DNA from: Nemania diffusa
Taxonomy: Eukaryota > Ascomycota > Sordariomycetes > Xylariales > Xylariaceae
Reading direction: 5' to 3'
DNA length: 64,000 nucleotides
Assembly: GCA_038501195.1 (NCBI GenBank)
Contig: JBBPUQ010000005.1
Coordinates: 1-64,000 of the forward strand
Shown here: one piece after another, positions 12,712-57,800 of the stretch
Layout of the letters: each line of letters begins with the position of its first letter
How positions within the stretch are numbered: the first letter of the stretch is position 1
Notes under the pieces: model-generated
Told to the model about the DNA's origin: nothing
Seen by the model: only the letters and a program-made list of their open reading frames with translations
Databases searched by the model: none
Program-made: the position numbers and the translations under genes

Positions 12712-13765
12712 AACATTATTAATTTTATACTTTTAATCACTATTTCATTATTAACACTATTACAAAAACAACATTACTAGTTTTACATTTTACATACTAT
12801 TTTATTGTTAGTACAATTACAAAAACAATGCTTTTATTAAATGCTAAACATAGCTAGAGAAAACAAAACAAAGCGCAGGCGCAAAAGCAAAAAGCACTGC
12901 TATAAAAAGCTTTTCAGCTAAATAGCTAGTTTTACTTTCTTTTTACTTTGCTGTTAACACAGCTTTTTAAACAACACTTTATTTAAAATAACTTACAACT
13001 TGACTTAATTAGCTTACTTTTTAACTTAACTGCTTTATTTTCTATTTTGATCAAATTTTTAATACAGTTACAGCATTAATATACAACTAAATCCTAGAGC
13101 TATAAGTTTTTATTACTTTTAAACGCAACTTATAACAATTTAACTACTTAACTTATTAACTTTTAGATCGATATTTTGCTTTATTGCTGCGCTATTTTTT
13201 TTTTTAATAGCGCTAGCATAATTAAAACACTAAAAAATAACTAGCGTTTACTTTTTTAATTATATTATATACTAAACGCTGCTTTCAATAGCTTAAATTA
13301 TATTGTTTTTTAATATAGTTTAAAAGTTTTAGACTTTTTTTATAATAATAACTAAAGCAGGACAAACTTTGTTACTTTTTTAATAAATAGTAACAGAGCT
13401 GCAGTTAAAAATTTAAATAGCGCTATACTTAATAAACTAAACTTATTTAACTTTAAACCTGACTATTTAACAACTAGTAAAACAACCTTTGAACTTTAAG
13501 CTATTATTGTCAATAATTACTTTATTAAAAATACCGATGTTTTAAAAAACCTGTTATTTACTGCTTAGTTAATAAAAGAAGCTTTTAATTTAGCTTTTTT
13601 GTATAACTAGCTAAAATAGCAATTTTTTACTTTTTTAAAGCAAAAACACAACTTTGTTCAATATTAATTGATAGTAATGTACTAAAAAGTGTATAACTGT
13701 AGTATGTTTTCTAGCTAATTTTACTTTTTGTTTTTTTTATCTGTTAACTAAGCCGCTTGCTGTTT
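12712..13765. other. Hypermutated DNA, no gene recognised
   Basis: G and C reappear abruptly from about 12,712. Surviving C and G cluster in AGCT, AACT, GCTT and GCAA words. A slightly richer patch at 12,850-12,900 includes GCGCAGGCGC. All frames carry many stops. No tRNA, satellite or element ends were found. Confidence 0.6.
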
Positions 13766-13945
13766 TTAAAAAGCTTTTAAAAAACGGAATATTTAATTTA
13801 AAAGCTTTTAAAAAACAAACTATTTGATTTAAAGCTTTTAAAAAACAGAATATTTGATTTAAAAACTTTTAAAAAATAAACTATGTAATCTAAAAGCTTT
13901 TAAAAAATGAAATATTTAATCTTTGCAAATATTTTATTTTTTAAG
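13766..13945. repeat. Palindrome-family element with reiterated left arm
   Basis: Five direct copies (about 36 bp apart) of a unit around AAAGCTTTTAAAAAACGGAA precede one inverted arm at 13,926-13,944 (AAATATTTTATTTTTTAAGC). The first copy keeps the least mutated half-site, ACGGAATATTT; later copies read CAGAATATTT, TAAACTAT and ATGAAATATTT. It belongs to the dispersed palindromic family seen up to about 30 kb. It may be a MITE-like element whose left terminal inverted repeat was amplified in tandem. Confidence 0.75.
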
Positions 13946-15914
13946 CTTTTTTTTTAACTTTTCCCAAATTTGTTCAATATTTTAGTTATAAACTCTTTTT
14001 ATATACTTTTACTAAATATATATTAAAAGTAGTACTAACAGCTATATTAAATAATAATAAGTACAAAAAAAGCAATATTTTATTTTAGTTAGCTAAGCAT
14101 ATTACTAACAATAACTTAGCTATATTTAATAATATTTTAACAAACAACAACTTAACAAATAAAATAGCATTTTAAAAAAAATTAACATATTAAAAAATAC
14201 TGTTTTAACATTTACTATTAAATTATAACAAGTTTAAACTTTCGTTTTAATTAATTAAAAACTTTTTTTTTATATTGCAAATACAACTTTTAGTTAAAAA
14301 AAGTTATAATATTAATAGTTATATTATTTAGCTTTAGTTTTTAAAGGTGTTTTTAAAGCATGCATTTTATTTGTTCTATATTTCTTTTTTTTATACTATA
14401 CTGTTGTAGAACTTACACTATATTTTTTAATCTATTGTACTTTATATAACATATAATATACAACTTAGTGTTTATAATATTAGCAGATTTAACTATATAC
14501 ATTTGTTTTTTTTAAACGTACTGCTTGTTTTTAAATAATATACTGCTTATTTGTTTTTTAACATGTAGTTTTTATTTGTTAACAACTATATACTACTAGC
14601 GCTTAAATATTTTTGTTTACACACTGTTATAAACTAATATTTTACGTTGTTTACTTAAATGTAAACAAAAGCTAACATACTATAAACTAAAATTTAAGCT
14701 TATATACAAAAGTGCTAGATTTATTTACAATATTGTATACTATATAAATATACTGCTAAATTTTAAAAACATTTAAAACAGTTATATAATAAGTACAAAT
14801 TGCGTTATTTTGCTGGTTTAATTATTATTTTGTAAAAATATAACACAAAAGATGTTACTGCAAATAATACTCCAAAAAAAGCAATTTATAACTTTTACTG
14901 CAAATATTTATTAACTATTAACTTTAATCTATTAAACTCTAAAACAACTTAAGTAAATTTTAAGTTTTATAATATACTATATATTACTAAACTTAAAAAT
15001 TAAACTAATGCTTTAGCTTTATTATTTATATTGCTTTATAAGTTAAAATGTTTAATTTATATAAAACAAGCAATTAATTATATATTTAAAAAGTTTATAA
15101 TATATTTATATTTATAAAACTTGTTTTAAAATATAAATTTGTTAAATATAATAAAAAAACTTATTAAAAAGCTTTTTTTGCTATATTAATTAAAAGCTTA
15201 TAATATTTATAAATAGCACTTTTAAACACTAAATAAAAACTAGTTTTTGTTTAATACGCTATAGTTTAAACTGCTTATATTAAGCTTTAATTTTATATAA
15301 ACTTTTTATTGTTTTTAAACTAGTATATTTATTTTTAAGCAGCTTATAAATATAAAATATATTTTTTAAACTTTTTAAAATTATAAAAGCTAGCTATATG
15401 TTTTGTTATTTTTTATACTGTTGCAAGTATTGCTGCTTAATTATAGCTTCTGCTGCAAATACTGCGTTTTATAATCACACTTTATAACTGTTAACTTTTA
15501 ACAGCTTATATTTGTACAAATATACTAACTGTTTGTTTTAGTAAACTATACAAAATATAACTTTTACTTTTTTGTTTTAACTAAAAATTTTAACACTTTA
15601 ATACTAATATATACTATTTATTTTATTAAGCTTATTAAAAAACTTGTTATATTTGTTTTATTTAATATTAATTTATTTACTAATTAGTTTTTAGCAAAAT
15701 TGTATATTAAACATTTATATATTAATCAGTTACTTTTAAGTCTGTTTTAGCTTACTTGTATTAGTAGTATGCCCTTTTAATACTTTTAAATATAAAAACA
15801 AAAGTTTAATATTTATTTTTTTAACAAACAAAAGTAACAGTACTATAAGCTTAAAATTGAAAATATTGTATACAAATATAGTATAATATAATTACTAAAT
15901 AATATATTTTAATA
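13946..15914. other. Hypermutated DNA upstream of a coding relic
   Basis: About 2 kb of AT-rich DNA with scattered AGCT, GCTT and AACT words. No tandem structure or terminal repeat was seen. It may hold the 5' part of the relic that follows, but stops are too dense to follow a frame. The stretch 14,341-14,580 was used to count mutation contexts. Confidence 0.5.
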
Positions 15915-15919
15915 GTATA

Positions 15920-16880
15920 TGCTCCGGTTTAACAATACTGTTTTAAACAAAATATATTTACTGTTTTTAAAACTATTTTATAACAATAAACAGCTATATT
16001 TATAAAGTACTATATAAAATGTTATTAAAGCTAATACTTTATTTAAAACTATGTTACAAATAAATATAGCGTAAATATTAATATATATAGTATTGTTTAA
16101 ACAATATAACAAAATATACAAGTTATATAATAAAACATATAAACTAGTACTATAAACTGTTATTTATATATATAATTTTAACTTTTTTAAAACTTATAAA
16201 AAGTTATTTAAACAATTAAACTTTTTTAGTACTGCTGTTAAAACTACTTTATATAAAAGTTTATTAAACTTTAATAGCAGTTATTTTTATGTTTTTATAC
16301 TTTTTAATTTATATAAACTTTATATTAAAATATTTTTAGCACTAAAAAAAAAAAAAGTTATTGCTTTGTTTAAAAAAAACAATATATTATTTAATAGTAG
16401 TATATTACTACTATTTATTTTAATGCAGCAGCAGCGGCTTAAAATAAGCGCAGCTAATAACAAATTTAATAAATATAAACGCTGCTTCTAGTTATTGTAT
16501 GTACAGTTAATACTAAACAGTTAAGCTAAAATTACAGCTTAAAAAGCTAAAACTTTCGTTTATTAATATACTAAAGTTTAAACTGTTTAAAATACTGCAT
16601 TCAACTATTGGAACTTTTATTATATATTATAAAACAACTAAACTAATTACTATAAAGTTTATACTAAAACTTATATCTTTATTACGTTTAACTTTAAATG
16701 TATAAAGTTTTTATGCTTATAATTGTTAAAACGTAATAACAATTAACAATTTGACTTTTTTAGCATTTTTTACTACTGCTTCAGCTTTTTAACTTATTAT
16801 ATAAAAAATTATTTAAATTATAACGTATTAACTTTTTTAAACTAAGTATTTTTGTTTATAGTAGCTATTTATTTATTATT
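15920..16880 (+). pseudogene. Coding relic riddled with TAA/TAG stops
   Basis: Read in one frame from ATG at 15,920, the first ~165 codons contain only about four stops, where DNA of this composition would give roughly fifteen. Those stops are all TAA, as expected from CAA, CAG or TGG by C-to-T and G-to-A change. The frame continues past 16,480 with denser stops, and C still sits at silent third positions (TAC, TGC, TTC and AGC codons near 16,765-16,790). The residues are rich in K, N, F, L and Y, as expected after hypermutation; a QQQRLKISAANNKFNKYKR stretch lies near 16,425. I do not recognise the family. A transposon protein or a subtelomeric helicase-type gene is possible, but nothing diagnostic such as a Walker or catalytic motif remains. 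The start codon is not certain. Confidence 0.4.
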
Positions 16881-17610
16881 AGCTAAAAGCTAGTTTAAAC
16901 TATAAATATTTAATATATACTTTATAATATATTAACGTTATATTATTTAGTAAATAATACTATGCAAATTTAAAAAATATATTAACTTTATTGTTTTATT
17001 AAAATATTTAATAATAAAAAGTTGCAACAGCAATTTTTATATATGTTTTAAATAGTTTTTTGTACTTTTAATAGCTTGTTTTATTTTATATAAAAGCTAA
17101 TTGTATTACTGCTTCAATATATATTTTTATACTGCAAAACTGCTGTTTTTGCTTATTAATATATTTATATAACTTAATTTATTAAATACAATTATAAATT
17201 AATTAATATATGCTATAAATACAAATAATAAATATAGTTTTAATATAGTTATAAATTTTATAAAAAAGCAAAAAAAGCTTTTTTTAAAACTTACTAAGTG
17301 AAAAAAACATATCAAACAATATAATATAAAAAGTAAAAGCAGTATTAGTTTTATATTAGCTATTAATAATATTAACTATACTAATAATAGCAATTATATT
17401 AATAATACTAATAATATTAATAATTATTTACTTTTAAAATAAATAAACTTTTTTAAAATTTATAATAAAAAAAAAATTAAATATAGTTTTGCTTTTATTT
17501 ATAATATAGTTTTAACTTAATATAATAGTTGTATTATTTAAACTTTAAAAAAAGCTATAAAATATAGTTAGCTTTTAAAAACTAACTTTTTTATATTAGT
17601 TAACTAAATA
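16881..17610. other. Hypermutated DNA with an AAT/ACT microsatellite
   Basis: No gene is visible. A trinucleotide-like run of ATTAATAATA and ACTAATAATA words lies at about 17,345-17,425. The rest is A/T runs with sparse AGCT words. The coding relic before it may extend a little into this stretch. Confidence 0.5.
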
Positions 17611-17760
17611 AGCTTTTAAAAAACAAAATATATAATTAATTTAAATATTTTATTTTTTAAGCTAGTTTTAAATAATTAACTTTTTTATTTTGTTTAATTA
17701 TATAAACTTTTATAAAACAAAATATATAATTAATTTTATATATTTTATTTTTTAAGCTAG
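17611..17760. repeat. Two palindromic elements
   Basis: The first (17,611-17,662) starts AGCTTTTAAAAAACAAAATA and ends with the inverted arm TATTTTATTTTTTAAGCT. The second (about 17,705-17,758) has arms ATAAAACAAAATATA and TATATTTTATTTTTTAAGCT. They are members of the dispersed palindrome family; here every CGG in the half-site has become CAA or TAA. Confidence 0.75.
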
Positions 17761-18089
17761 TTTTTAAGCAAACGTTTAAATTTATAATATTTAATTGTTT
17801 TAATTTTTATTATTATTTAATTTAGCTATAAAAATTTAGATTTAATTAATTTTACAAACTACGACTTTTTTTTTTTTTTGCTTAGTGCTTTTACAAAAAC
17901 TGTTTTAAAAGTACTATTTTTAAAAAGATGCTTTTTTTTAGCACTTTTTTTTAAAACTAGAGCTTTTGTTAAAACAAGCAAAACGTTAGCTAAAAGCGCT
18001 TGTTTTTAAGCTTTTAATAAAATAGCTAAAATGTTAGTTAAAAGCGCTTGTTTTATTTAAAAGCTTTTTTTTAAAAAGCTTATTAATAT
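17761..18089. other. Mutated spacer with a short direct repeat
   Basis: Contains a roughly 45-bp duplication around TAAAAGCGCTTGTTTT (near 17,990 and 18,035) and inverted AGCACTTTTTT words. No coding sequence was found. Confidence 0.5.
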
Positions 18090-18440
18090 TGTATAGTTTA
18101 CAAAATGTTTATTTATTTTTATTTATTGTATACTGCTTTTAATAGTTTGATTATATGCTGCTAGCAGTACAAAATCTTTATTTATTTTTATTAATTGTAC
18201 GCTTAGTTTAATAATTTAATTATATATTACTAATATAACAGAATTTTTATTTATATTTATAAATTTTATACTTAGTTTAGTAATTTAACTATTTTTTGCT
18301 AGTATTGCAAAATTTTTGTTAATATTTATTAAATTTGCGCTTTGTTTAATAATTTAACTATTTTTTGCTAATACTATAAAATATTTGTTAATATTTATCA
18401 AATCTGCACTTAGTTTAATAACTTAGCTATGTTTTTTTAG
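18090..18440. repeat. ~68-bp tandem repeat, about five units
   Basis: Units recur at about 18,096, 18,165, 18,236, 18,304 and 18,371, each with an ACAAAATCTTTATT-like core, a TTTATTAATTGTACGC-like middle and AGTTTAATAATTTAACTAT. Divergence is mostly C/T and G/A. The array ends in a slightly GC-richer edge (GTAGCGCAGG, 18,441-18,450). Confidence 0.75.
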
Positions 18441-19523
18441 TAGCGCAGGATTTTTTTCGGCATTTTTTTCGGTATTTTTTTTATTATTTGTTAAATCGTT
18501 TATATTATATATCTAAGCTTTTAACTACAGTTTATTATTTGTTAAATTTTTGTTTAAGTTAATAATTTAGCTTTTAACTTTTTTATAATAGCTGCTATTT
18601 TTATATTTGAAGTTTTTTTGTTTTAAAAATGCTTTATTTTAAGCTTTATGTTAACTTTTATTATATTTGCTCTAGTTTTAGTTTGTTAACTACTTTTTAA
18701 ATGTTTAGCTAAATGTAATTTTATTGTTAGCTTGAACTTAAACTATTAAAAAAAATAACAGCAATTTAATAAAGTCTAGCTAATTTACTAGCTGTTTAAA
18801 TGTTTGTTAGCTATACAACTTTGTATTAAAAATGTCAAGCTTTTTATAATTAATATATATTACAAACAATAGTAAATTAATATTTAATATTTAATTAAAG
18901 TTTTTTTACTTAATAAACTTATTATTTAATGCTATATTAACATATAAAAAGTAATTTAATATAAAACTAGCACTAACAATTATATAATAGCAATAGCTGC
19001 TTAAAAAAATATTTTATATAAACTAAAAATATAAGTTTACTGTTATACTTAAAGCGTTTTTTATTTTAATAGCAAATTTTAAACAAGCGAAAAAAATGTT
19101 ACAGCTTTATAATATATTTTTATAATATAACTAAATTATATAGCTGCAATTAGTATTGTTTAAAATGCTAGCAGTAATAAAAAAATCTTAATAGATTTTA
19201 AAATTCAAAGTTTTGCTGCTAAAGCTAAGCATAGTATAAAATAACAGATTTAAAAAATTTAAAAAACTAAAAAAAATGCTATAACAACATAAAGTTTTCT
19301 TTTATAATAAAAATTAATTAAAATAAGCAATATTTATAATAATAATTTTAGTAGTAATATAAAATTAACTAAAATCTAATATATATATATTAATATTTTT
19401 TTAACAAATATTAAAGTAAATATTATAAACAAACAAATTAGTTATACTAAAAATACAAGCTATATATTTTATAAATAAAAGTTAATACACTGTAAACAAA
19501 AAAAAAAAGCAAAAAAAAAAAAA
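18441..19523. other. Hypermutated DNA, no gene recognised
   Basis: Begins with a doubled TTTTTTCGGCATTTTTTTCG motif near 18,450-18,480, then AT-rich sequence with AGCT and GCTT islands and poly-A runs near 19,500. No open frame of useful length and no repeat family member was seen before the palindromes at 19,524. Confidence 0.5.
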
Positions 19524-19670
19524 AGCTAAAAAACAAAATATTTATAATTAATAAATATTTTGTTTTTTAAAAGCTAAAAAAAAAAATATTTACAACTTGT
19601 AAATATTTTGCTTTTTAAAAGCTAAAAAACAGAATATTTACAACTTGTAAATATTTTGTTTTTTAAAAGT
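19524..19670. repeat. Three palindromic elements in tandem
   Basis: Three head-to-tail hairpins of about 49 bp at 19,524-19,573, 19,571-19,622 and 19,619-19,670 share their AGCT borders. The third is clearest: left arm AGCTAAAAAACAGAATATTT, loop ACAACTTG, right arm TAAATATTTTGTTTTTTAAA. A perfect arm pairs with a C-to-T decayed arm, which shows the original half-site to be AAAAAACGGAATATTT. Confidence 0.85.
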
Positions 19671-21102: not shown

Positions 21103-21153
21103 AAGCTTTAAAAAATAAAATATTTACTAGTTTAAATATTTTGTTTTTTAAAA
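21103..21153. repeat. Palindromic element
   Basis: A single copy of the dispersed hairpin: left arm TTTAAAAAATAAAATATTTA, loop CTAG, right arm TTTAAATATTTTGTTTTTTA. Only G and C positions of the half-site are altered. Confidence 0.75.
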
Positions 21154-21945: not shown

Positions 21946-22059
21946 GTAAAAAATATATTTATATATATAAAAAAAAGTACAAATTATAATATATTTAAAA
22001 TATAACTTATACTAGCTTAATATTTTAAAAATTAGTTATAATTTTTAAAATATTATATT

Positions 22060-30920: not shown

Positions 30921-31430
30921 AGTTGATATAAAAAAAATAAAACAAAATTTTAACTAAGTTAAACAAGTGCTTAAGGTTAACTTTAACTTATAACTTGTTA
31001 TAATTTAATAACGTAGTATTAACTTAATGCTTTATTAATATTTTAAATTAAAATAAATTTAAAGCATTGATTTATATATTAGCTTTTTTTAACTAAAAAG
31101 CAAAATTAAACCAGATTATAATATTTAATAATATATTTTTAATTAATTATAAACATGCTTTTTTAAATTTTATTATAAAAAATATTATTTGTTAGCGCTA
31201 GCTAATAATATTTTGAAATAGCTTTTAGTATATTATAATACTTGTTTATATTATATTTACAATTAATTCGTTGTAAAATCAAAGCATTAAAAATGTTGTA
31301 ACTATTACTTATAATAAAAGCTTTTAAAATGTTAAACTGTTGCTTATAGCTATTGCTTGTAAAAAAATCAAATAAGCTAAAAAATAAGTACAACTTAGCT
31401 TTTGTTTAATTAGGTATAAATAAGCTTAAA
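30921..31430. other. Mutated spacer upstream of the duplicated relic
   Basis: No clear gene. A 63-codon minus frame at 31,202-31,393 has no motif and lies opposite the approach to the duplicated relic. One GGTTAACTTTAAC word occurs near 30,973. Confidence 0.45.
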
Positions 31431-32280
31431 ACATTTTCGCAAAAAAGTTTGTGCAATAAAAAATTACTGCAAACAGTACAAAAGGTTTAAAGTTTCGAAA
31501 TAATACTACATAAACACAAAAAAAGATCTATAGTTTAATTATAAAAACTATTAAAGTTTTAAACACTTTAAACTTTTGTTAGTTTTAGTGTTTTTTTGTT
31601 ATTTTGAAGTAATAGCTTGTTTAAAGTTAGTATATTTAGTATTTTTTAAACTCGTAGATTGTAGTAAAACTTAAAAGCGAATAAATTTTTATTAACTTGT
31701 AATTGTTTATTAAAATTTTTACTACAATAATTAGTACATCTGTTTAAAATGTAGCTATTTAATAAACTTAGCTATAATATATATGTTACAATTAAAAGTT
31801 TAACAAATATATTTGTGTTATTGAAACTAAAAATAAGTTAAAACAAAATTTACAAAATGAAACTTATATAAAAAGTAAGTTGAAGCTTTAAAATAAACTA
31901 TAAAGCTGCTTTTATAGTACTAAATTAACTGTTTAAAGTAAAAGTTTGAAATATGTCGATTTGCTGCAGCAAAAACGCAAAATCTATATATGTATAAGTT
32001 ACAATTAAAAAAGTACTAAAAAATTTTGTAGCTTATGTTTAAAAACTTATTTTGAGCTTTTAAAAAAGCTAAAGCTTAAAATATATTGTTGCAAAAATAT
32101 AGTTTGTTAATTGTACTTTTGAATATAAATAAGTTAAAAAATTATATAAGCTTTAACAAGCTTAAAAATTTACAGTTTACTTTAATTAAATATACTTTTT
32201 TTAAAAGCTTAGCTTTTTTTGTTACTTTTACAAAAAAACATAATATGTTAATTAGTTTAAATATTTACTGCGTATAAAGC
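31431..32280 (+). pseudogene. Duplicated coding relic, copy 1
   Basis: Read from 31,436 the frame gives FAKKFVQ, stop, KITANSTKGLKFRNNTT, stop, TQKKIYSLIIKTIKVLNTLN and so on, ending in an open 63-codon segment at 32,086-32,277 in a shifted frame. Coding origin is shown by comparison with copy 2 (from 32,748). The codon at 31,496 is CGA here and TAA there. In a LK-stop-stop-LV stretch the second TAG here is CAG there, and the TAG after AACTCG is likewise CAG in copy 2. Stops therefore come from former Gln and Arg codons by C-to-T and G-to-A change. The family is unknown; a mobile-element protein is plausible. Confidence 0.6.
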
Positions 32281-32739
32281 AAACTAGCAGTATAAATTAT
32301 AAAAAAAAATAAAAAATGTACAAAAAGAGTTAATTAACTAAATAGAAATTTTTAACAAAACTTTATTAAAAGTACTAAGTAAATACTTTAGCAAATGTTT
32401 AAAAAAAAAATAGATTTTAATAATTTAAATACAAATATAAAAAAGTATAAATAAAAAGTTTAAATAAAAAAAATCAAAAAAGAAATAATTAAAAAAAGTA
32501 ATAGTAAAAAAAAAAAAAAGTTTAAAAAATTGTTAGTTTAAAAAAAAAAGAAAAAAAAGTTTAAAAAACTGTTAGTTTAAAAAAAGTAAAAATTAACAAA
32601 AGAAACAAAAAATAAAACATAACAAAAAAAGCAAAAGTAAAATTTTTTTTGTTTTATAGACTTTTTTACTATTTTTAATATTATATTTTAATGTTATATT
32701 ATAAAGCTTTAGCTAATAATACGCTGTTTTGTTTAACTT
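32281..32739. other. A-rich spacer between the two relic copies
   Basis: Contains a doubled AAAAAGTTTAAAAAA...GTTAGTTTAAA unit at about 32,500-32,590 and long A runs. No gene was found. Confidence 0.5.
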
Positions 32740-33475
32740 AAGAAGTTTTTGCAAAAAAGTTTGTGCAAAAAAAAATTACTGCAAATAGTACAAAAAGTTT
32801 AAAGTTTTAAAATAATATTATATAAATACAAAAAAAAATTTATAGTTCAATTATAGAAACTATTAAAGTTTTAAATATTTTGAGCTTTTGTTAGCTTTAA
32901 CGTTTATTTGTTATTTTGAAATAACAGTTTGTTTAAAGTTAATATATTTAGCATTTTTTAAATTTGCAGATTATAGTAAAACTTAAAAGTAAATAAATTT
33001 TGATTAACTTATAATTGTTTATTTAAGTTTTTATTACAATAATTAGCATATTTGTTTAAAATGTAGCTATTTAACAAACTTAGCTGTAATATATATACTA
33101 CAGTTAAAGATTTAGCAAATATGTTGTTGTTATTAAAGCTAAAAATAAGCTAAAATAAAATTAGTTAAAATAAATAATAAAGCTGCTTTTATAGTAAAAA
33201 CTTAAAATGTACTAATTTAATGCAGCAAAAAATGCAGAATTTTTATATATATAAATTATAATTAAAAAAGTATAAAAAAAGTTTTTAGTTTAAATTTTAA
33301 AAAGATTTATTATAAGTTTGCTAATAAACTAAGCTTTAAAACATAATATTATAACTAAATGTTTTGTTAGTTGTACTTTTAAATATAAACAAGTTTAAAA
33401 ACTATATAAATTTTAATAAGTTTAAAAATAAAAAGTTTATTTTAGTTAAAAGTATATATAAAAATGTTTTTTAAA
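32740..33475 (+). pseudogene. Duplicated coding relic, copy 2
   Basis: Frame from 32,748: FAKKFVQKKITANSTKSLKF, stop, NN, and so on, collinear with copy 1. Codon 8 is AAA here against TAA in copy 1; codon 21 is TAA here (32,808-32,810) against CGA. Further on, two CAG codons here match TAG stops in copy 1. Similarity extends to about 33,475 but this copy is slightly shorter, with a deletion near 33,150-33,180 relative to copy 1. It is more mutated than copy 1. The two lie about 1.3 kb apart in direct orientation, the kind of duplication RIP-type processes recognise. Confidence 0.6.
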
Positions 33476-34350: not shown

Positions 34351-37040
34351 TACTTGTAATTTTTGTATTGTTTTAAATTTAGTTTTTTTTTATAAAATTT
34401 ACTATGTTTATTTTTTGCTACAAAGTAAGTTGAGCCGAGAGCTTATATTGAACTTTATATTTAAAATTTATTTTGTTTTATATTGTTATTTTTAGCTTTT
34501 TTTATACTATTTTACTCTGTTTTTTTTGCTGATTCTTTTAGTATTTTTAACTTTTTTTTCTGTATAAAATTTACTAAGTTGAATTTTCTGCTCTAAAGTA
34601 AGTTAAATCGAGAGTTTAAATTAAATTTTATATTTAAAGTTTACTTTGTTTTATATTGTTATTTTTAGCTTTTTTAATACTATTTTATTTTGTTTTTTGC
34701 TATAGTTTTTTATATATTTTTAGTTTTTTTTTCTGTATAAAATTTACTAAGTTGAATTTTCTGCTTTAAAGTAAGTTGAACTAAGAGTTTATATTAAATT
34801 TTATATTTAAAGTTTGTTTTGTTTTATATTTTTATTTTTAGCTTTTTTTATATTATTTTACTTTGTTTTTTGTTTTAGTTCTTTGTATATTTTTAGTTTT
34901 TTTTTCAGTGTAAAATTTATTAAGTTGACTTTTTTGCTTCAAAGTAAGTTTAGCTAAAAGTATATATATAATTTTATGTTAAAAGTTTACTCCGTTTTAT
35001 ATTGTTATTTTTAGCTTTTTTAATACTATTTTACTTCTTTTTTTCTTTTAGTTCTTTATATATTTTTAGTTTTTTTTTTTGTACAAAATTAACTTAGTTA
35101 AACTTTTTGCTTTAAAGTAAATTGAGCTAAAAGCTTATATTAAATTTTATATTTAAAGTTCGCTTTGTTTTATATTTTTATTTTTAGCTTTTTTTATACT
35201 ATTTTATTCTGTTTTTTGCTTTAGTTCTTTGTATATTTTTAGTTTTTCTTTCGCTGTAAAATTTACTAAGTTAATTTTTTTGTTTTAAAGTAAATTGAGC
35301 CAAGAGCTTATATATTATTTTATGTTAAAAGTTTATTTTGTTTTCTGCTGTTATTTTTAGCTTTTTTAATACTATTTTTATTTTTTTCTTTATTTAGTTC
35401 TTTATATATTTTTAGTTTTTTTTTTGTTATAAAATTTACTAAGTTGACTTTTTTGCTTTAAAGTAAGTTTAACTAAAAGTATATATATAATTTTATATTT
35501 AAAATTTACTTTGTTTTTTGTTGTTATTTTCGGTTTTTTTGATACTATTTTATTTCGTGTTTTTTTCTAGTTTTTTGTATATTTTTAGTTTTTTTTTTGT
35601 TGTAAAATTTACTAAGTTGATTTTTTTGCTTTAAAGTAAGTTTAGCTAACAGTATATATATAATTTTATGTTAAAAATTTACTTTGTTTTTTGTTATTAT
35701 TTTTAGCTTTTTTGATACTATTTTATTCTGTTTTTTTTGCTGCTTTTTATAGTATTTTTAACTTTTTTCTTTATATAGAATTTACTAAGTTGATTTTTCT
35801 GCTTTAAAATAAGTTAAGCTAAAAGCTTATATTAAATTTTATATTTAAAGTTTATTTTGTTTTATATTGTTATTTTCAGCTTTTTTAATATTTTTTTACT
35901 TTGCTTTTTTATATGGTTTTTTATATATTTTCAGTTTTTCTTTCGATATAAAATTTACTAAGTTGATTTTTTTGCTTTAAAGTAAGTTTAGCTAAAAGCT
36001 TATATTAAATTTTATATTTAAAGTTTACTTTGTTTTATATTGTTATTTTTAGCTTTTTTAATACTATTTTACTTTGCTTTTTTACTTCGTTTTTTATATA
36101 TTTTCAGTTTTTTTTTTGCTATAAAATTTATCAACTTGATTTTTCTGCTTTAAAGTAAGTTGAGCCAAAAGCTTATATTAAATTTTATATTTAAAGTTTA
36201 CTTTGTTTTATATTGTTATTTTTAGCTTTTTTTATACTATTTTATTTTGTTTTTTCCTTTAGTTTTTTATATATTTTTAGTTTTCTTTTCGCTGTAAAAT
36301 TCACTAAGTTGACTTTTTTGCTTTAAAGTAAGCTTAGCTAAAAGCTTATATATTATTTCATGTTAAAAGTTTACTTTGTTTTTTTTTGTTATTTTTAGCT
36401 TTTTTTATACTATTTTTTTTTTTTTTTTTATTTAGTTCTTTGTATATTTTCAGTTTTTCTTTTTATATAAAATTAACTTAATTGAACTTTTTGCTTTAAA
36501 GTAAGTTTAGTTAAAAGCTTATATATAATTTTATGTTAAAATTTTACTTTGTTTCTTGCTGTTATTTTTAGCTTTTTTAATACTATTTTATTTTGTTTTT
36601 TGCTTTAGTTTTTTATATATTTTTAGTTTTCCTTTCTGTATAAAATTTACTAAGTTGACTTTTTTGTTTTAAAGTAAGTTAAGCCAAAAGTATATATATA
36701 ATTTCATGTTTAAATTTTACTTTGTTCTCTGCTATTATTTTTAGCTTTTTTAATACTATTTTACTTTGTTTTTTTTGCTGCTTTTTTTTGTATTTTTAAC
36801 TTTTTTTTCTATATAAAATTTATTAAGTTGACTTTTTTTCTCTAAAGTAAGTTGAGCCAAGAACTTATATTGAATTTTATATTTAAAGTTCACTTTATTT
36901 TACATTGTTATTTTTAGCTTTTTTAATACTATTTTATTTCGTTTTTTTTGCTATTTCTTTTAGTATTTTTAACTTTTTTCTCTGTATAAAATTTATTAAG
37001 TTAATTTTTCTGCTTTAAAATAAGTTGAGCTAAAAGCTTA

Positions 37041-37351
37041 TGTCACAATTATAAAGAGCATAAAAGCTAGTTTATTGATTTTATTAACTGAAAACTTTAA
37101 AATAAAAAAAAAAGGAAAAAAAAGCTAAATTACATGTGTATGCTACGCGGGGTATATAGGTATATAGGACTGCAAGTGGTTTTTCTAAAGTGGGCTTTAC
37201 AAAGTGGATTTTTTAAAGTAAGTTATTTTAAAGATTGTAGTTTTTACAAGTTAATAAGAATCGCGGGGTTATGTTGCAACAAAGTATATAAGTCTTTGTT
37301 TACAATTAATAAAATAGGCGTAAAAATTAGTTGCTTATATAAATTATTATA
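37041..37351. mobile_element. Solo LTR inserted in the satellite, 5-bp target duplication
   Basis: Begins TGTCACAATTATAAAG and ends TATTATA, a decayed form of the TGTTACA end seen in its relatives. It is flanked by GCTTA at 37,036-37,040 and GCTTA at 37,352-37,356, and the satellite monomer resumes exactly where it was cut (AAAAGCTTA, then TATATTATTTCATG). The element is about 311 bp with no internal region, so it is a solo LTR left by recombination. It is clearly less mutated than the host satellite (CTACGCGGGGTATATAGG, GTGGGCTTTAC), so it came later. A 72-codon open frame inside it is not a gene. Confidence 0.85.
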
Positions 37352-38812
37352 GCTTATATATTATTTCATGTTAAAAATTTACTTTGTTTTATGCTGTTAT
37401 TTTTAGCTTTTTTAATACTATTTTATTTTGTTTTTTGCTTTAGTTCTTTATATATTTCTAGTTTTTTTTTTTGTACAAAATTTACTAAGTTAATTTTTTT
37501 GCTTTAAAGTAAATTAAGCTAAAAGCTTATATTGAATTTTATATTTAAAGTTTACTTTGTTTTATATTGTTATTTTTAGTTTTTTTTATATTATTTTATT
37601 CCGTTTTTTCTTTTAGTTTTTTATATATTTTTAGTTTTTCTTTTGCTGTAAAATTTACTAAGTTGACTTTTTTGCTCTAAAGTAAGCTTAGCTAAAAGCT
37701 TATATATTATTTTATATTAAAAGTTTACTTTGTTTTCTACTGTTATTTTTAGCTTTTTTAATACTATTTTTTTTTTTTTTTTTATTTAGTTCTTTGTATA
37801 TTTTTAGTTTTTCTTTTGCTATAAAATTCACTAAGTTGATTTTTTTGTTTTAAAGTAAATTAAGCCAAAAGTATATATATAATTTTATGTTTAAAATTTA
37901 TTCCATTTTATGTTATTATTTTTAGCTTTTGTTATATTATTTTTTTTTGTTTTTTTTACTAATTTTTTTAGTATTTTTAACTTTTGTTTTTATATAAAAT
38001 TTATTAAATTAAACTTTTTTCTTTAAGGTAAAATTAACTAAAAAAGTACATTTAAGTTTATTTATAAGATTTTCTTAGTGCTTTGTAATAGTTTGTAGCT
38101 TTATTAATTCTATTTTACTTTGTTTTTTTTGCTAATTTTGTGCATATTTTTAGTTTTTCTTTTGCTATAAAATTCATTAAGTTTACTTTTTCGCTCTAAG
38201 GTAAGCTTAGCTAAAAAAATACATTTAAGTTTATTTATAAGATTTTTTCAGTGCTTTGCAATAGTTTGTAGCTTTGTTAATTCTATTTTACTCTGTTTTT
38301 TCTGCTGATTTTATGCGTATTTTTAGTTTTCCTTTCGCTATAAAATTCATTAAGTTCACTTTTTCGCTCTAAGGTAAGCTTAGCTAAAAAAGTACATTTA
38401 AGTTCACTTATATGATTTACGCAGTGCTTTTTAATAGTTTTTAGCTTTTTTACTACTATTTCTTTCCGTTTTTTCCGCTGGTTCTGTGTATGTTTTTAGT
38501 TTTTCTTTTACTATAAAACTTACTAAGTTTACATTTTTCTCTAAAGTAAGTTTAGCCAAGCATTTATTTATAATTTCACTTTATAGATTTACTTTATTTT
38601 TTGCTATTTTTTATAGTTTTTTTATACTATTTTATTCCGACTTTTTCGCTAGTTTTAGCAGTGTTTTTAGTTATTTATTATATATAAACTTTACTAAGTT
38701 AACTTTTGTTTTTTTAAAGTAAGCTTAGCTAAAAGCATATATTTAATTTCATTTAAAAAGTTCACTTTGTTTATTACTGTTATTTTTAACTTTTACTATA
38801 TTAATTTCCTTT

Positions 38813-39167
38813 TGTCACGATTGCAGAGTAAGCATAAAAACTTATTAATTGATTCTATTAACTAAAGACTTTTAAATAAAAAAGAAAAAAAAAAAGGGCT
38901 AAATTACAAATGTATGCAGCAAAAGATATACAGGTGTGTGAAGTAGCAAGTAAGGTTATAGTAAGGTGTTAATAAATGCGTGCAAAAGATTCGGCTAAAG
39001 TTCCTCCAGGGTGGGTCTCCTGCAGGTAAGTCTAAGGTAAGTCCCGGGTAGGTTCTCCCGAATAAGTGGTCCGAAGTTTCTCCAAAGTGGGTCTTTTGTA
39101 AGTAAGTCTAAAGTAAGTCCCGGGTAAGTTCTCCCAGGTAAGTGGTTTTTAAGGGCTGATTGTTACA
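38813..39167. mobile_element. Solo LTR, least mutated member
   Basis: TGTCACGATTGCAGAG at the start and CTGATTGTTACA at the end give a 355-bp element with TG...CA termini. The flanks are CCTTT (38,808-38,812) and CTTTT (39,168-39,172), a 5-bp target duplication with one C-to-T change. It sits at the edge of the 173-bp array. Inside is a ~76-bp direct duplication carrying AAGTCCCGGGTA at about 39,039 and again at about 39,115, with repeated GGTAAGT words. It keeps abundant TpC and CpC, unlike its surroundings. TG...CA ends and a 5-bp duplication fit Ty3/gypsy or Ty1/copia elements; without an internal region the superfamily is open. Confidence 0.88.
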
Positions 39168-39172
39168 CTTTT

Positions 39173-40221
39173 ATTCTTTTTACTTAGTATATTTCTTTTT
39201 ACAATATTAAATTTAGTAATAATTTAAAGCTTTAACAGCTTTTTAATTTTATACTAAGCTTTTTCAGCTTTTTTCTTTGTTATTGTTAATGTTATAAAAG
39301 CTTAAGTTTTTTAGCTTAAATATGTAACAAAAATACTAGCTTACTAGTTAGTTAGTCAGTTAGCTAGTCACTTATATATAAGATTTATAGCTTAAAGAGT
39401 TTAAAAACTTATTTTTTAACTTTTTCAAGTTATTAACTTCTCTTTTAGCCATTTATTAATAGTTTACCCCTTGTACACTTATTGCTTTGTTTTTATTTCG
39501 TTAATAACTCGCTATTGCATTTAGTTAAGTCGAGTTTTTATAGCTTATTATAAGTTTAATAACTTATATAAGTCTATGTTGTAACAATTAATATATTTCA
39601 GTGTTTATTATACTAGCTTCCTAGTAAGTAATTATTTTGGACTTTTTAGTAGCATGTAAAAACAACTAGTTTATATATAGTTTAAAAGCTGTTTTTTGCT
39701 TTTTCTAGTATGCAAAAATAAGCAATAAACCTTACAAGTTATTTTTATAGAACTAAAGTAGTAAAAAAACATTACTGTATTACTAGACTATTATACAAAG
39801 CTTTTTTTACCTAAGGTAAAAAATAGGCTAAATTTAAGCGGTACTATTTTATAATTAAAAAAATAAAGTAAAACTGTTGTTTTTTAACCCGGAAGCTTTT
39901 AAACTGGTTTAACAGTAATATTAAAACGAGTTTTATTATATACAAAAAATTATCAACTTTTTAAGCTGTTTTTGTAGAACTTGTTTAAACAAACTTAAAT
40001 ATATAAGATTTACTGTGTAAAAACTACTTGAGCTATTATTTGAAGCTTCAATTTGTAAGCAGCAAACAAAAGTTAAACAAGCAGAACTTTTCAACATAGA
40101 GAATATTTGTTACAAACACATATATTACTTCTTTAAAAAAAAAAAGAAAAAGAAGTTTTGAACTAGTTTTAAAAAACTAGTTAGCATTTGTTTTAAAAAC
40201 TTAAAATGTTTTAAAAAAATC
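39173..40221. other. Moderately mutated DNA downstream of the LTR
   Basis: GC is higher than in the left half. A GTTAGTTAGTCAGTTAGCTA run at 39,348-39,367 resembles the motif of the island at 58.1-58.5 kb. Other GC-retaining spots are near 39,460 and 39,885 (AACCCGGAAGC). No open frame of note was found. Confidence 0.5.
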
Positions 40222-50447: not shown

Positions 50448-50582
50448 ATAAAGTTAAAAAAATAAAAGTTAAAGTTAAAAATAAAAATAAGCTTAAGCTT
50501 TAAAAAAACAAAGTAACAGCAGTATTTAATATAAAGTTAAAAAAACAAAAGTTAAAATTAAAAATAAAATTAAGTTTAAAAA
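50448..50582. repeat. Short A-rich tandem duplication
   Basis: Two units about 80 bp apart share ATAAAGTTAAAAAAATAAAA, GTTAAAGTTAAAAATAAA and AAGCTTAA words. A lysine-rich translation is possible upstream (KAVKKTKAIANISIKLKK) but stops follow at once. Confidence 0.5.
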
Positions 50583-51660: not shown

Positions 51661-52560
51661 AAGTTTGTAATTAGTTATTGTTGTTTAGTTTAATAAACTT
51701 TATATAACTAATTAATAAATTGTAATTTGTCGATTTTTTTGTTTAAAAAGTAATTGCTATACAAAAAAAAAAAAGTATTAAATATTGTACAAAAAAAATT
51801 AAATAATATTAAATAAAATATTAGTTCATACAAAGCTATATTTTAAATATATATATTTGAGCAGTTTTTATTTGCTTCTATTTTTTTTTTTTTTTTTTTT
51901 TTTTTTTTGTATATTTATTTATTTATTTATTTATATATACATATATATATATATACATACATATATATACAACAGCAGCAGCAAAAACATAGCTATTTGT
52001 TTTTGCTTGCTTTTAGTGCTTACAGCAACATATTATAGTTTTAAAATTTTGTTTGTACTAAAAATAATAGCTATATAAAAGTATACAATTTTTTAACTAA
52101 AAGTTAGCTTTATTAAACTATTATGTAGAAATTTTATATAAATATATATATTTTTATATAAATAGTTTGTAATATATTTTTTTAATTAATATATTTGATT
52201 ATATAATAAATTAAAAAAAAAATTGTTTGTACTGCTTTTTTTACTAATATTTTATTTTAAGTATTATTTTTAAACAATTTCGAAAATGTTTAAACAAAAC
52301 TTGTTTACTAAAAAAAATACTTTTAAGCTATTTTAGTTTAAAGCTAAAAGTATTATATTTGCTATATATAAAAGTTCTAAGTTTATAAAGTAGCTATTGC
52401 TATTATATTAAGTCGCTGTTTCTAAAGTGTTATTAAATCTTTAGTTTTTAAAAAAGTGCTTGTAATATTTATGTTTAGTGTTTGTATAAAGCGCATTGTT
52501 TTATATATAACTAAAAAAAAAAAAAAAAAAAGTTATGTTTTAGTTAAAAAGTTATATAAT
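51661..52560. repeat. Subtelomeric module X, copy 1
   Basis: Collinear with 53,640-54,620: GTTGTTTAGTTTAATAAACT, then TAATTGCTATACAAAAAAAA, TATTAAATATTGTAC, a long T tract, a TTTATTTATTTATATA tract, a TA/CA microsatellite, GCAGCAGCAG, TTTTTGCTTGCTTTTAG, TTTTTAACTAAAAG, and TTTAGTTTTTAAAAAAGTGC near 52,440. The shared order over about 900 bp makes this a true segmental copy. The 73-codon frame across the T and TA tracts (51,857-52,078) is a by-product. Function unknown; no coding sequence is shared. Confidence 0.85.
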
Positions 52561-52659
52561 TTGCTAAAAAGTTTTTAATAAACAATATTTTTTTTTTGTA
52601 GTGTTTTTACGTTTAATTTTACTTTAGCTTTTTTTTTTTTTTATATATAAACAAAATAT

Positions 52660-53100
52660 TGTATAGTATATTGTATAAATGCTCTATATATATAAAACAT
52701 TGCGCTATGTTATATATACATAAATATAAAGTATTGCGCTATATACATACATAAGCTATTGTGTTATATTATATATAAATAAACTATTATGCTATATTGT
52801 ACATAAATAAAACAATGCGCTGTATTATATGTACGTAAGTATAAAACATTGCTTTATGTTTTGTAAATATATATAAAGCAATACAATATATTGTGTATAT
52901 ATAAAATATTGCACTATATTATACATAACTAAAATATATTGCGCTATATTATATATAAGTAAGTATAAAATAATGTGCTATAATATATATAAATAAAAAG
53001 TATTGCACTATATATATGCATAAAGTATTACGCTATGTTTTATATACATAAATATAAAGCAATATATTATATTGTATATAAACAAAACATTGTATAATAC
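52660..53100. repeat. Satellite S, array 1 (~35-40-bp units)
   Basis: About ten degenerate units of ATTGCGCTATATTATATATA plus AAATAAAA-type spacer. Variants show C/T and G/A changes (GCGC, GCAC, GTGC, ACAA). It follows module X copy 1 and precedes module Y copy 1. The same satellite returns at 56,550-56,880. Confidence 0.85.
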
Positions 53101-53140
53101 TTGTTTGCTATTTTAGTATACAAGTTAATTCGATTTTTAT

Positions 53141-53405
53141 TAAATAAGCTATATATATATAATAGTATATATTAGTTATATATAAACAGAATATAAAACT
53201 AGTTGTACTATGTTTATATTAATAATTGATACTAAAAAGAGTTTTTTTGTACAGCTGGAGATTTTATTGTAAATGAAATCTTTACTAGCGTACGAAGTAA
53301 GTGCTTGCTTATATAACTATATACTTAGTTGTACAACTGCAGTACAAATACTGCAGCATATAAACTATAACATATAGTTATAACTAATACTAGTATTTTA
53401 ATACT
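53141..53405. repeat. Module Y, copy 1
   Basis: About 260 bp matching 55,991-56,253: AGTATATATTAGTTATATAT, TTGTACTATGTTTATATTAA, AGTTTTTTTGTACAGC, GAGATTTTATT, GAAATCTTTACTAG, then a palindrome-rich end (CTGCAGTACAAATACTGCAG; ATAACATATAGTTATAAC; ACTAGTATTTTAATACTAG). It could be a solo LTR or small element, but the ends could not be fixed. This copy keeps more GC than copy 2 (GCTGGAG, GCGTACGAAG). Confidence 0.75.
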
Positions 53406-53539
53406 AGCTCTTTTTTTTTTTAATAACAACTAAATATTGTACAAAAACAAAAAAATAAAAAATAAAAGTACAACATGCTTTATAATAACTTAGTTCTATT
53501 ATACAGTAAGTCAGTTGTTTTATAGCTATATACAAATAA

Positions 53540-54620
53540 CATAGTTTAATTATTTGCTATATTAACTTAGCTTATATATTATATAACACTTTTAGTTAAT
53601 TGAAATAGCTAATTGCTACTTATTGAATTATTAATTACAGTTAATTCAATAAAAGTGACTTTTTTATACAGCAGTTAAATCTACAATAAATTATTGTTAG
53701 TTAATTTAGAAGTTTTTATACAGTTGATTGATTAGTTGTTATATATTAACTTGTTTGTTTAATAAATAATTGCTATACAAAAAAAAAAAAATATTAAATA
53801 TTGTACAAAAAAAAATAAACAGTATTAGTTGAAGTGTTAGCTTATATAGTATAAAACTTTAAGTATATTTAGTTAGTTTTTATTTGTTTCTGTTTTTTTT
53901 TTTTTGTTTCTTTTTTATACGTTTGTTTGTTTGTTTATTTATTTATTTATATATATATATATATTACACGCATACATATATATACATATATATACTTATT
54001 TATTTATATATATATATACATTATATAGTAGCAGCAGCAGTAATACAATAGCTACTGTTTATTTTTGCTTTATGCTTGCTTTTTTGAGCAGCATAATGTA
54101 GTTTTAAAACTTTGTTCAAACTAAAAACAATAAAGCAGTAAAAGTATACAGCTTTTTAACTAAAAGCTAAGTTTACAAAACTTTTATATAATTGCTTTAT
54201 ATAAATATATATTTATTTTTGTACAAATAAATCTTTTTATATATTTTTAACTAATATATTTAATTGTACAATAAGCTAAAAAAAATATTGTTTATGCTAC
54301 TTTTTCTACTAACATTTTTTTTTAAGTGTTTATTTTGGACATTTTTACAAACGTTCAAACAAAGTTTATACACTAAAAGAAATACTTTCGAACTATTTTA
54401 GTTTAAAGTTGGAGTTTAATTACACTACTTTATACTAATAGCTTTCGAAATAGTTATTAATGCTACATTAGCGCACTGTTTACTAAGTATTATTAAATCT
54501 TTAGTTTTTAAAAAAGTGCGTGCAGTATATATATTTAATGCTTGCACAGCGCTTGTTGCTTTTAGCGTAGCTTATAAAAAAAAAAAAAAAAAAAAAAAAA
54601 AGATTTAGTTTTGCTTTGTT
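53540..54620. repeat. Subtelomeric module X, copy 2
   Basis: Matches copy 1 over its length and copy 3 over its left end (TTAGCTTATATATTATATAA near 53,568 and near 57,433). It holds the same T tract, TTTATTTATTTATATA tract, AGCAGCAGCAG near 54,030, GCTTGCTTTTTTGAGCAGC, ACTAAAAGCTAAG and a long A tract (54,573-54,600). Here the A tract is 28 bp. The 65-codon frame at 53,904-54,101 and the 74-codon minus frame at 54,501-54,725 follow these low-complexity tracts and are not genes. Confidence 0.85.
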
Positions 54621-54819
54621 TTTTATATAATAACTAAAAAATAACAAATTCAATTTTTTAGTTTTTTTCAACAATGTTTTTTTTATATATACTATATAAA
54701 TATTTTTTATACATATATATAACAAAATATTTTATATTATATATAAGTTGTTAAATATATATATATTTTTCAACTTTTTTTTAAATATAAAAGTTTATTA
54801 TACATATGTTTATTAGTTA

Positions 54820-55045
54820 ACTTAAAATAAAAATATATTATATATATATATATTAATTAATATATAGTAAATATATATTATATATATATATAACTGTCGA
54901 TATATAGTAAAAATATATTGTATATATATATAGCTATTAATATAAAATAAAAATATGTTGTATATATATATAGCTGTTAATATAAAGTAGAAATATATCG
55001 TACATATATATAGCTGTTAATATAAAGTAAAAATATGTCGTATGT
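54820..55045. repeat. 40-bp tandem repeat, five to six units
   Basis: Units of 40 bp read TATAAAGTAAAAATATGTTG then TATATATATATAGCTGTTAA. The last unit breaks at ATGTCGTATGTAAG. Differences between units are mostly C/T and G/A. Confidence 0.9.
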
Positions 55046-55990
55046 AAGTAATTCTAAATACATATAACAAAAAAAGAAAAAAAAAAATCAAAAAAATTAA
55101 CACAGCTCAAAATCGATAATTTTCAATATTAATTTAGAACTATATATACTTTAGCTAAAAATTAAACTTGAAATATATAGTAAATGCTGCATATATTACT
55201 GCTACACTACTAAAACTTGTTTATTAAATATAAATTTTTTGTAATATTTAAATATATACTTTTTTATATAAAAAAAAAAAAGAGCAACTTTTATATAAAA
55301 GTCATTTTATATTGTATGCTTTTTTTAGCTAGTATATGAATTATTTTTTGCTAGATTAGCTTTTACAAACTGTTTTATGCTTTATATATTTAAAAAAAAA
55401 AATCTTTAACATACAATATTTAAAATAGCTAGCTAATAACATTTAAGTATTTATATTTAATAATATAGCGAGTTATTTAAATATTAAACATAATTAGCGT
55501 TACAGTTGTAAAATCAGGTTTTTGATTTTAATATTATATATTGATTGAATTTTGTACAATATATTTGCTAATTTTGTAGTTTATAGCAATTTTGTTGTAT
55601 TAGTTTATATTATTATATATAGAAAGTTTTCCCTTGTTATATAAATGTTTTAACACTATAGTAGTTAAAAAAAATAACAAAATATAAAAATAAAGTAGTA
55701 AAAAATTTGTTGTTTAGTTATTATATAACAAATAATCTAGTATAATTATATACTATTTTTTTTAATATTGCTTGTTGTATATAAACTTTATAATGCAGTA
55801 AAATATATTCGAAAATAATATCTAAGCTTGATTTTTTTTTTGAACTTTGTTATACAAAAATTACTCAATTTATATAAAACAAAAGCTTCAAAGTATAATA
55901 CAAAAACTTGTTCAAGCTATTTAAGCTTTAAGCTAGCTTTATTTTTACTTTTGTTAATTTATAGTATATTTTGCAACTACTAATTAATAT
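55046..55990. other. Hypermutated DNA between modules
   Basis: No gene was found. AATCGATAATTTTCAATA and TTTTCCCTTG words are isolated GC remnants. It lies between the 40-bp array and module Y copy 2. Confidence 0.45.
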
Positions 55991-56253
55991 TAAATGAACT
56001 ATATATGTACAATAGTATGTATTAGTTATATATAAATAAAATATAAAGTTAGTTGTACTATGTTTATATTAATAATTAATACTAAAAGAAGTTTTTTTGT
56101 ATAACTAGAGATTTTATTTACAATGAAATTTCTGCTAGTATATAAAGTAAGTATTTGCTTATATAACTATATATTTGTTTGTACAACTATAGTACAAATA
56201 TTACAGTGTATAAACTATAACATATAGTTGTAACTAATATTAATATTTTAATA
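55991..56253. repeat. Module Y, copy 2
   Basis: Same order as copy 1 but more mutated: GTACAGC has become GTATAAC, CTGCAGTACAAATACTGC has become CTATAGTACAAATATTAC, and the terminal palindrome is lost. It precedes satellite S array 2 after about 300 bp of mutated spacer, so the Y/S order is reversed relative to copy 1. Confidence 0.75.
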
Positions 56254-56549
56254 AGTAATATATTATTTATTGCTAAAAAACTTACAATATATTTAGTTAA
56301 CTGAATTTTTTTCGATTTTTTTAACTAAGCTTTTTGTTAGTGCTTTCGCTATTATTTTCGAAATTTTGCTATTAAAAATTTTTTTTTTGCTTTTTTTTAT
56401 TTGCTTTTTTAGCTAACACTTGTATAAAACGTAAATTATAGAACTTTTATATTTTGCTATATTAAATATTTTCGAAAAAATATAAATGCTTTTAAATCGG
56501 CTTTTTTAGTTGCAGTAAATGTTCTAGCCAACTGTTTTTATTTTTTAAA

Positions 56550-56880
56550 AATATTGCGCTATATTATACATATATAAAATATTATGCTATATTATATATA
56601 AGTAAAATATATTGCGCTATATTATATTTAAGTAAAACATATTACAATATATTATATATAAATAAAACATATTGCAATATATTGTATATAAGTAAATATA
56701 AAATAATATGTTATAATATATGTAAATAAAAAGTATTGTGTTATTTTCTATATATAAAAGTATAAAGTAATATATTATATTGTATATAAGCAAAATATTA
56801 TATAATATATAGTGTAAATTTTTATTTTATATAAGTATATAACAATATGTTATATTATATATAAACTGTTAATTTATATA
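56550..56880. repeat. Satellite S, array 2
   Basis: About eight units of the ATTGCGCTATATTATATATA satellite, more decayed than array 1 (ATTACAATATATTATATATA; ATTGCAATATATTG). It ends about 40 bp before the solo LTR. Confidence 0.8.
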
Positions 56881-56920
56881 TATTTTTTAATTGTTTGAAT
56901 ATAAAATATATTGCACTAGT

Positions 56921-57264
56921 TGTTACAATTGTAAAAAGTATAGAAATTAATTAAATAATTTTATTAGTTAAAAACTCTAAAATAAAAAAGAAAAAAAAAA
57001 AAAGCTAAATTATATATATATACTATGTAAAGTATATAAGTATATAAAACTACAAATAAAGTTGCAAATAAAATTGTAAAGTTTAGCTGAAGTTTTTTTA
57101 AAGTAAGTTTTATAAAGTAAATTTTTTAAAATAAGTTATTTTAAAAATTATAGTTTTTATAAAGCAATAAAAATTATAAAGTTACGTTATAACAAAATAT
57201 ATAAATCTTAATTTACAATTACTAAAATAAGTATAAAAATTAATAGCTTATATAAATTGTTACA
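56921..57264. mobile_element. Solo LTR, heavily mutated, 5-bp target duplication
   Basis: TGTTACAATTGTAAAAAG at the start and AAATTGTTACA at the end bound 344 bp collinear with the LTR at 37,041-37,351: GCTAAATTATATATATA where the other has GCTAAATTACATGTGTA, then ACTATGTAAAGTATATAAG for CTACGCGGGGTATATAGG. The flanks are CTAGT (56,916-56,920) and CTAAT (57,265-57,269), a 5-bp duplication with one G-to-A change. It is the most decayed full-length member, so it shows what the mutator does to a known template. The start itself changed from TGTCACGA to TGTTACAA. Confidence 0.85.
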
Positions 57265-57399
57265 CTAATTATTTTATATTATATAATAAAGTAATTATTT
57301 TGTTAAAAAATATATATTGTTTTATATTATATATTAATTAAATTATTTTGTAATATTATATAAATAATTTAATTTAATAATTGTATAATATATTTAATA

Positions 57400-57800
57400 T
57401 AGCTTATTTAATTTATAAGCTTTATTAATTTAGCTTATATATTATATAATATATTTAAATAGCAAAAAGCTACTAAATATTACTAAATTACTAGTTATAG
57501 CTAGTTTTAAGTTATAGCTTTGTTATATAATAACTAAGTGCACTAATAACTTATTGTTGTTTAATTTAGTAAGTTTTGTAAAAAAAATTAATAAGTTGTT
57601 ATATATTAAACTGTTTATTTAATAAATAATTGTTATATAAAAAAAAGCAGTATTAAATATTAAACAGATAAAAAATTAACAGTATTAAAACAAAGTTAAT
57701 TTATACAACAAAAAATTTTAAATATAAAAACTTAAAAAACATTTTTTTAATATTTGTATATTTATATATACATGTATATATATATACATATATAAATATA
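57400..57800. repeat. Subtelomeric module X, copy 3 (partial)
   Basis: Shares the left part of module X: TTAGCTTATATATTATATAA, TTGTTGTTTAATTTAGTAAG, GTTATATATTAAACTG, TAATTGTTATATAAAAAA and TATTAAATATTAAACAG, ending in a TATATACATGTATATA tract. The right part with the T tract, GCAGCAG run and A tract is missing. It is the most decayed copy. Confidence 0.7.

Follow-up and report, generated by a model that had tools for sequence, protein, structure and literature searches.

Cytosine-to-thymine hypermutation of repeats in Nemania diffusa follows mainly the base before the cytosine

The first 64 kb of one contig of the ascomycete Nemania diffusa (contig JBBPUQ010000005.1, here C5, of NCBI GenBank assembly GCA_038501195.1; C5:1-64000, hereafter the window) contain a hypermutated, repeat-rich stretch (12,712-57,800) of 17% GC, whose surviving C residues stand mainly 3' of a purine. 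The locus raises the question of which rule decided what cytosines were lost. The order of contexts in repeat-induced point mutation (RIP) of Neurospora crassa is CpA > CpT > CpG > CpC (PMC5496416). An original prediction, made from the letters of this DNA alone, was of C-to-T hypermutation with a preference for a 5' pyrimidine (TpC or CpC). Counts over the window and a table of repeat copies compared with a polarising copy both confirm it: the hypermutation is real and strong, and what chiefly decides its targets is the base preceding the C, a pyrimidine.

Residual cytosines in the window

Counted on both strands of 12,712-57,800, the ratio C/(C+T) was 0.267 after A and 0.387 after G, against 0.049 after T and 0.047 after C, i.e. 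a 5.4- to 8.2-fold deficit after pyrimidines (Y) relative to purines (R). By downstream base it differed only 1.3-fold (A 0.148, G 0.165, C 0.183 and T 0.189). Ten genic stretches of the same genome (100 kb; 49% GC on average) gave ratios of 0.453-0.542 by upstream base, and the 5' pattern of the window recurred in all other AT-rich stretches examined (L007, L008, L012, L013, the first 5 kb of L019, and L020). The AT blocks mostly have less than 25% GC, as had 36 of 150 one-kb windows in 15 stretches of 10 kb sampled at round coordinates inside chromosomes, and the borders of the AT blocks are sharp: at three of them GC falls from ∼0.4-0.5 to below 0.1 over ∼100-200 bases. Repeats are mutated, and genic DNA, presumably single-copy, is spared.

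Hand counts had been offered for the 5' preference. The one for 14,341-14,580 is exact on both strands (ApC 30, GpC 10, TpC 5, CpC 1; CpA 22, CpT 21), and the copy strings quoted with it are located at 31,493, 31,524, 32,805, 38,813 and 56,921; those at 31.5 kb and 32.8 kb align mutually, and the first two examples lie in a pair of copies (31,425-32,190 and 32,737-33,450) that are 77% identical. The count for 39,001-39,167 is exact for the 32 C of the plus strand (upstream T 16, C 13, G 2, A 1); it covers one strand only and the 47 C of the minus strand differ (upstream A 24, C 18, T 3, G 2), so that by itself it gives no starting composition.

Comparisons among copies, made here without polarity, agree in the main. 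Variable C sites were commoner after Y than after R in six of seven repeat sets inside the window, and in a tandem array with a unit of ∼173 bp (34,360-38,815) the variable share for C/T differences was 0.82-0.89 after Y and 0.26-0.43 after R. The least mutated segment (38,941-39,180) has five matches near other chromosome ends (on C7 and C8); compared with these partly overlapping matches, it varied at 140 of 247 sites after Y and 35 of 180 after R, and all 215 substitutions were transitions. When the window was compared with seven dispersed loci (11 pairs), 744/916 sites after Y and 1761/3275 after R were variable; by 3' base the counts in these pairs were 925/1316 (A), 1233/2267 (T), 65/101 (G) and 10/60 (C), and a CpA effect is therefore visible there too. 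Four pairs of mutated Copia copies gave 65/79 after Y and 322/515 after R. A Copia-type copy on C10 (L046) was tried as a reference and rejected as too distant (40-45% identity to nine mutated copies), and an integrase profile search (PF00665) returned one match, below the cut-off.

A polarised comparison on a Gypsy-type element

Because residual composition alone could mislead, copies of a Gypsy-type element were compared with the least mutated copy found (C7:2,395,455-2,398,154; ∼45% GC). A DNA search with this copy gave 19 further matches; six stretches covering seven of them were aligned (14,747 aligned sites) and the other twelve were left out. Almost all substitutions (4269 out of 4395) were C>T or G>A; 110 ran the other way and 16 were transversions. 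The mutated share by upstream base was 90% after C (1087/1211), 83% after T (1376/1665), 58% after A (1054/1832) and 42% after G (752/1793), and the order of both pyrimidines above A above G held in each of the six stretches; by downstream base the counts were 1129/1540 (A), 1111/1610 (G), 744/1212 (C) and 1285/2139 (T). In a logistic model of 6501 sites with a separate intercept for each copy and strand, the drops in deviance were 1017.6 for the base at -1, 313.4 for -2, 180.0 for +2 and 131.3 for +1, so that -1 accounted for roughly eight times as much deviance as +1. Since the copies share sites, ranges for the odds ratios came from a bootstrap over the 1194 sites; Y rather than R at -1 gave 6.01 (4.96-7.11), and A rather than another base at +1 gave 1.59 (1.31-1.90). 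With starting composition thus corrected for, a pyrimidine at -1 outweighs an A at +1 in this one family, so the check named as able to refute the original prediction came out in its favour here. The extremes among pentamers were YYCRY (321 of 339 mutated) and RRCYR (140 of 590).

One correction to the original prediction is that CpA is not neutral: a 3' purine raises the mutated share at RpC sites of the heavily mutated copies. After A the shares were 0.65 (ACA) and 0.69 (ACG) versus 0.50 (ACT) and 0.43 (ACC), and after G they were 0.57 (GCA) and 0.49 (GCG) versus 0.34 (GCT) and 0.30 (GCC); residual ratios in the window point the same way (ACA 0.207, below ACT at 0.341). The effect is hardly visible at YpC in these copies, where TCG (326/436, 0.75) was the lowest TCN context and CCA (272/288) the highest of all contexts.

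The polarising copy had itself undergone a light, mostly one-strand round. It has T where another copy keeps C at 63 of 493 plus-strand sites versus 13 of 407 minus-strand sites, and the C that remain on its plus strand show a smaller mutated share than those of the minus strand in each of the six stretches, because the copy had already lost susceptible plus-strand sites. The light round followed the -1 base (46/142 for Y and 17/351 for R; Fisher P = 5e-15) and showed no excess of CpA (14/120 with a following A vs 49/373 otherwise, P = 0.75). Nor did it show the 3'-purine effect at RpC (RCA 5/91, RCG 2/84, RCT 9/127). A one-strand round is a trait of RIP, seen here in one element copy; of the RIP clusters of Neurospora, 91.9% are confined to a single strand (PMC7296669).

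DNA methyltransferase and deaminase genes

The original prediction had pointed to RID, DIM-2 and cytidine deaminase homologues as genes to look for, and the genome encodes RID-type and DIM-2-like proteins. A profile search with PF00145 gave six matches at four loci. On C8 a 738-aa frame has the SPPCQ (PCQ) and EQT motifs and is RID. A second RID/Masc1-type protein is encoded on C6 (3,188,744-3,192,625; L027), in a 374-aa frame that also has SPPCQ and EQT; upstream of it a 245-aa frame resembles, by eye, the N-terminal part of relatives of this protein. The match on C7 is a DIM-2-like protein with a BAH domain, and the one on C5 is a fourth methylase within a 2142-aa frame. EQT in place of ENV is the mark of Masc1/RID proteins, a fungal family for which methyltransferase activity has not been shown (PMC6709928). 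Among the best 120 of 732 relatives of the RID protein the closest (97% identical) is named Hypoxylon argillaceum, and those from Nemania and Xylaria are 62-83% and 59-74% identical, respectively. For the C6 protein, the top identities among the best 120 of 306 relatives (54-77%) are those of Nemania, some Xylaria, Astrocystis and Poronia; others are below 50% (Fusarium ∼40%).

Three genes encode an OTT_1508-type deaminase domain (C6:2,385,096, 555 aa; C8:2,140,892, 467 aa; C4:1,604,663, 318 aa). A search for NAD1 gave no matches, with a control that was uninformative, and other APOBEC families were not searched for.

Interpretation and comparison with known systems

Very probably this is RIP by its anatomy, with an altered target rule; this best reading draws on the C:G to T:A change, the spared genic DNA with sharp edges, the one-strand light round and the RID-class genes. 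Duplicated DNA would be recognised in the sexual cycle (the premeiotic timing and homology trigger being supplied from RIP as known), and cytosines would be turned into thymine via a DNA methyltransferase of the RID/Masc1 class, one strand at a time. Repeated rounds could take an element of ∼45% GC to 10-22% GC or lower. In choosing its targets the process would strongly favour YpC over RpC; pyrimidines at -2 and +2 would raise the chance of mutation further, and a purine at +1 would raise it only after a purine at -1. The rule may be set by the RID protein on C8, by the second RID-type protein on C6, or by a partner.

Several observations weigh against this reading. CpA, the usual leading context of ascomycete RIP, leads neither in the Gypsy-type table nor in the light round; only one repeat family was polarised against a GC-rich copy, and that copy has taken light mutation of its own, on one strand. 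In the 44.6-kb array, sites after Y and after R do not differ (28/55 and 99/197). Finally, RIP is expected to mutate young repeats above a length limit, and an RVT_2 element has six copies, each on a different contig (L040-L045; C2:4,402,145, C3:4,363,826, C4:2,589,163, C7:3,300,373, C8:1,947,038 and C10:2,785,090; 44% GC), that differ by 6 substitutions over ∼2.7 kb each, none of them C>T. RIP has therefore not acted on these copies: they may have met no sexual cycle since spreading, they may be shielded from it, or it may be switched off. Of the predicted RIP-like process with a different context rule, then, the rule is supported, and there is no sign of present-day activity. The RVT_2 copies are unmutated although the other repeats of the genome are heavily mutated; beyond ∼2.7 kb some pairs of them diverge, with up to 46 mismatches over ∼3 kb.

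A rather doubtful alternative is that two processes are overlaid, namely a mutator specific to YpC, for example the second RID-type protein, and a less strong one for CpA/CpG (e.g. DIM-2, or the first RID with deamination of 5-methylcytosine) that is visible only where the -1 base is a purine. The 3'-purine effect, which appears at RpC, hardly at YpC and not at all in the light round, would fit this explanation, as would the presence of two RID-type genes. However, a single enzyme whose preference is graded produces this table too when YpC sites are saturated, and RpC events in the light round are few (17).

Direct editing of repeat DNA by a cytidine deaminase, APOBEC-like or of another class, is quite unlikely. 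APOBEC-type enzymes favour TpC or CpC and so share the 5' pyrimidine preference, and the three genes with a deaminase domain could be candidates; but here it is repeats that are targeted, and the genome has a full RID/DIM-2 set, which accounts for this targeting.

It is most improbable that ordinary CpA-type RIP acted and that the 5' pattern is an effect of composition. The secondary effect of A at +1 favours that explanation, as do the classical indices, which in the window are positive for CpA RIP (TpA/ApT 1.42; (CpA+TpG)/(ApC+GpT) 0.68). We mutated 60 kb of genic DNA from the same genome in silico, with one run per rule. With a sevenfold preference for 5'Y and none on the 3' side, the indices were 1.51 and 0.70 at 18% GC, and C/(C+T) was 0.030 after Y and 0.346 after R (window 0.048 and 0.303). 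Under a pure CpA rule the indices were 1.36 and 0.13, and the ratio came out equal after Y (0.197) and R (0.202) and at 0.022 before A. The indices thus come out positive under a rule without any 3' preference, because ApC is spared. Pure CpA RIP is rejected, as the simulated CpA rule leaves Y and R equal and the polarised table starts from a copy of 45% GC.

UV-type damage at dipyrimidines, whose signature is a change of YpC to YpT, has a negligible chance of being the cause and was rejected, as RCY, which holds a dipyrimidine, was mutated less often (748/1872) than RCR, which holds none (1058/1753), the two were equal in the light round (10/176 and 7/175), and genic DNA is spared.

RIP with an altered rule, the preferred reading, can be set beside known systems. 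It resembles that of Neurospora crassa (RID, with DIM-2) in the almost exclusive C:G to T:A change, the AT-rich repeat blocks, the one-strand rounds and a RID protein with EQT, and differs from it in that the base before the C leads and in that the N. diffusa genome has two RID-type proteins. Like the RIP variants of other ascomycetes, it is RIP with a shifted context; in Magnaporthe a 5' W (A or T) context is known. The shifts reported for these variants, however, concern the base after the C: CpA is about equal to CpG in Trichoderma reesei, and CpT is preferred in Botrytis, Sclerotinia and Magnaporthe (PMC5496416, PMC4352252). Microbotryum and other Pucciniomycotina have a TpCpG hypermutation whose target includes a 5' T (PMC5381629), and hosts of this type are basidiomycetes without RID (PMC4352252). 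A 3' G is needed there, whereas here CpC is mutated at least as often as TpC and TCG is the lowest of the TCN contexts, so TpCpG was rejected as the target.

In the literature searched, as far as its accessible parts go, we found no description of a 5'-pyrimidine rule in an ascomycete. The authors of RIPCAL state that it was not designed for trinucleotide bias (PMC2621366), and a 2025 survey, which describes the CpA preference as common to RIP-like defences, has no words beginning with TpC, trinucleotide or Xylari in its main text (PMC12543289). The leading determinant here is on the opposite side of the C from the preference claimed by that survey, and surveys that use indices or count CpN are blind to the difference between a 5' and a 3' rule. 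Our tentative proposal is that some of the Xylariales have a re-aimed RIP, in which an enzyme of the RID class reads a 5' pyrimidine (∼YYCRY) and not a 3' adenine; this enzyme might be the second RID/Masc1-type protein, which relatives in Nemania and some Xylaria share. Rules of this kind could be common yet have escaped notice, since nothing but the base following the C is scored by the standard indices and the alignment tool. N. diffusa would offer a natural variant for asking which part of a RID-class enzyme selects the target.

Other features of the window and of the assembly

The assembly has 55,621,613 bases in 16 contigs. The window starts at a chromosome end, with 19.8 copies of the telomere repeat TAACCC (1-119), followed by a nearly C-free subtelomere (120-12,650) with 60 C:G pairs among its 12,531 bases, in which the longest A/T-only run measures 2,253 bases (from 9,986) and even RpC sites are almost all lost. 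Repeats between 40,255 and 46,400 are common to L007 (start of C1), L013 (C5, 0.5 Mb) and L019 (C8, 1.0 Mb) and are 78-89% identical. A GC-richer island (58,000-58,500; GC 0.24-0.52 in 50-base steps) lies within the AT block, and a tandem array with a 1,144-bp unit (59,005-64,000) reaches the end of the window; its neighbouring units are ∼93% identical, with 8% GC and the same 5' rule.

Elsewhere in the assembly, the start of C12 (220,760 bases) has ∼30% GC, and C12 and C13 share equal-scoring RVT_1 matches, several with internal TGA; the two contigs are perhaps a very large mitochondrial genome. An apparent 0% GC at the start of C14 and of C16 was discarded, as both contigs read N over their first 10 kb. 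Nine other RVT_1 matches of equal score (88.4 bits) are without stops: one on C3 (909,099), four on C14, two on C15 and two on C16.

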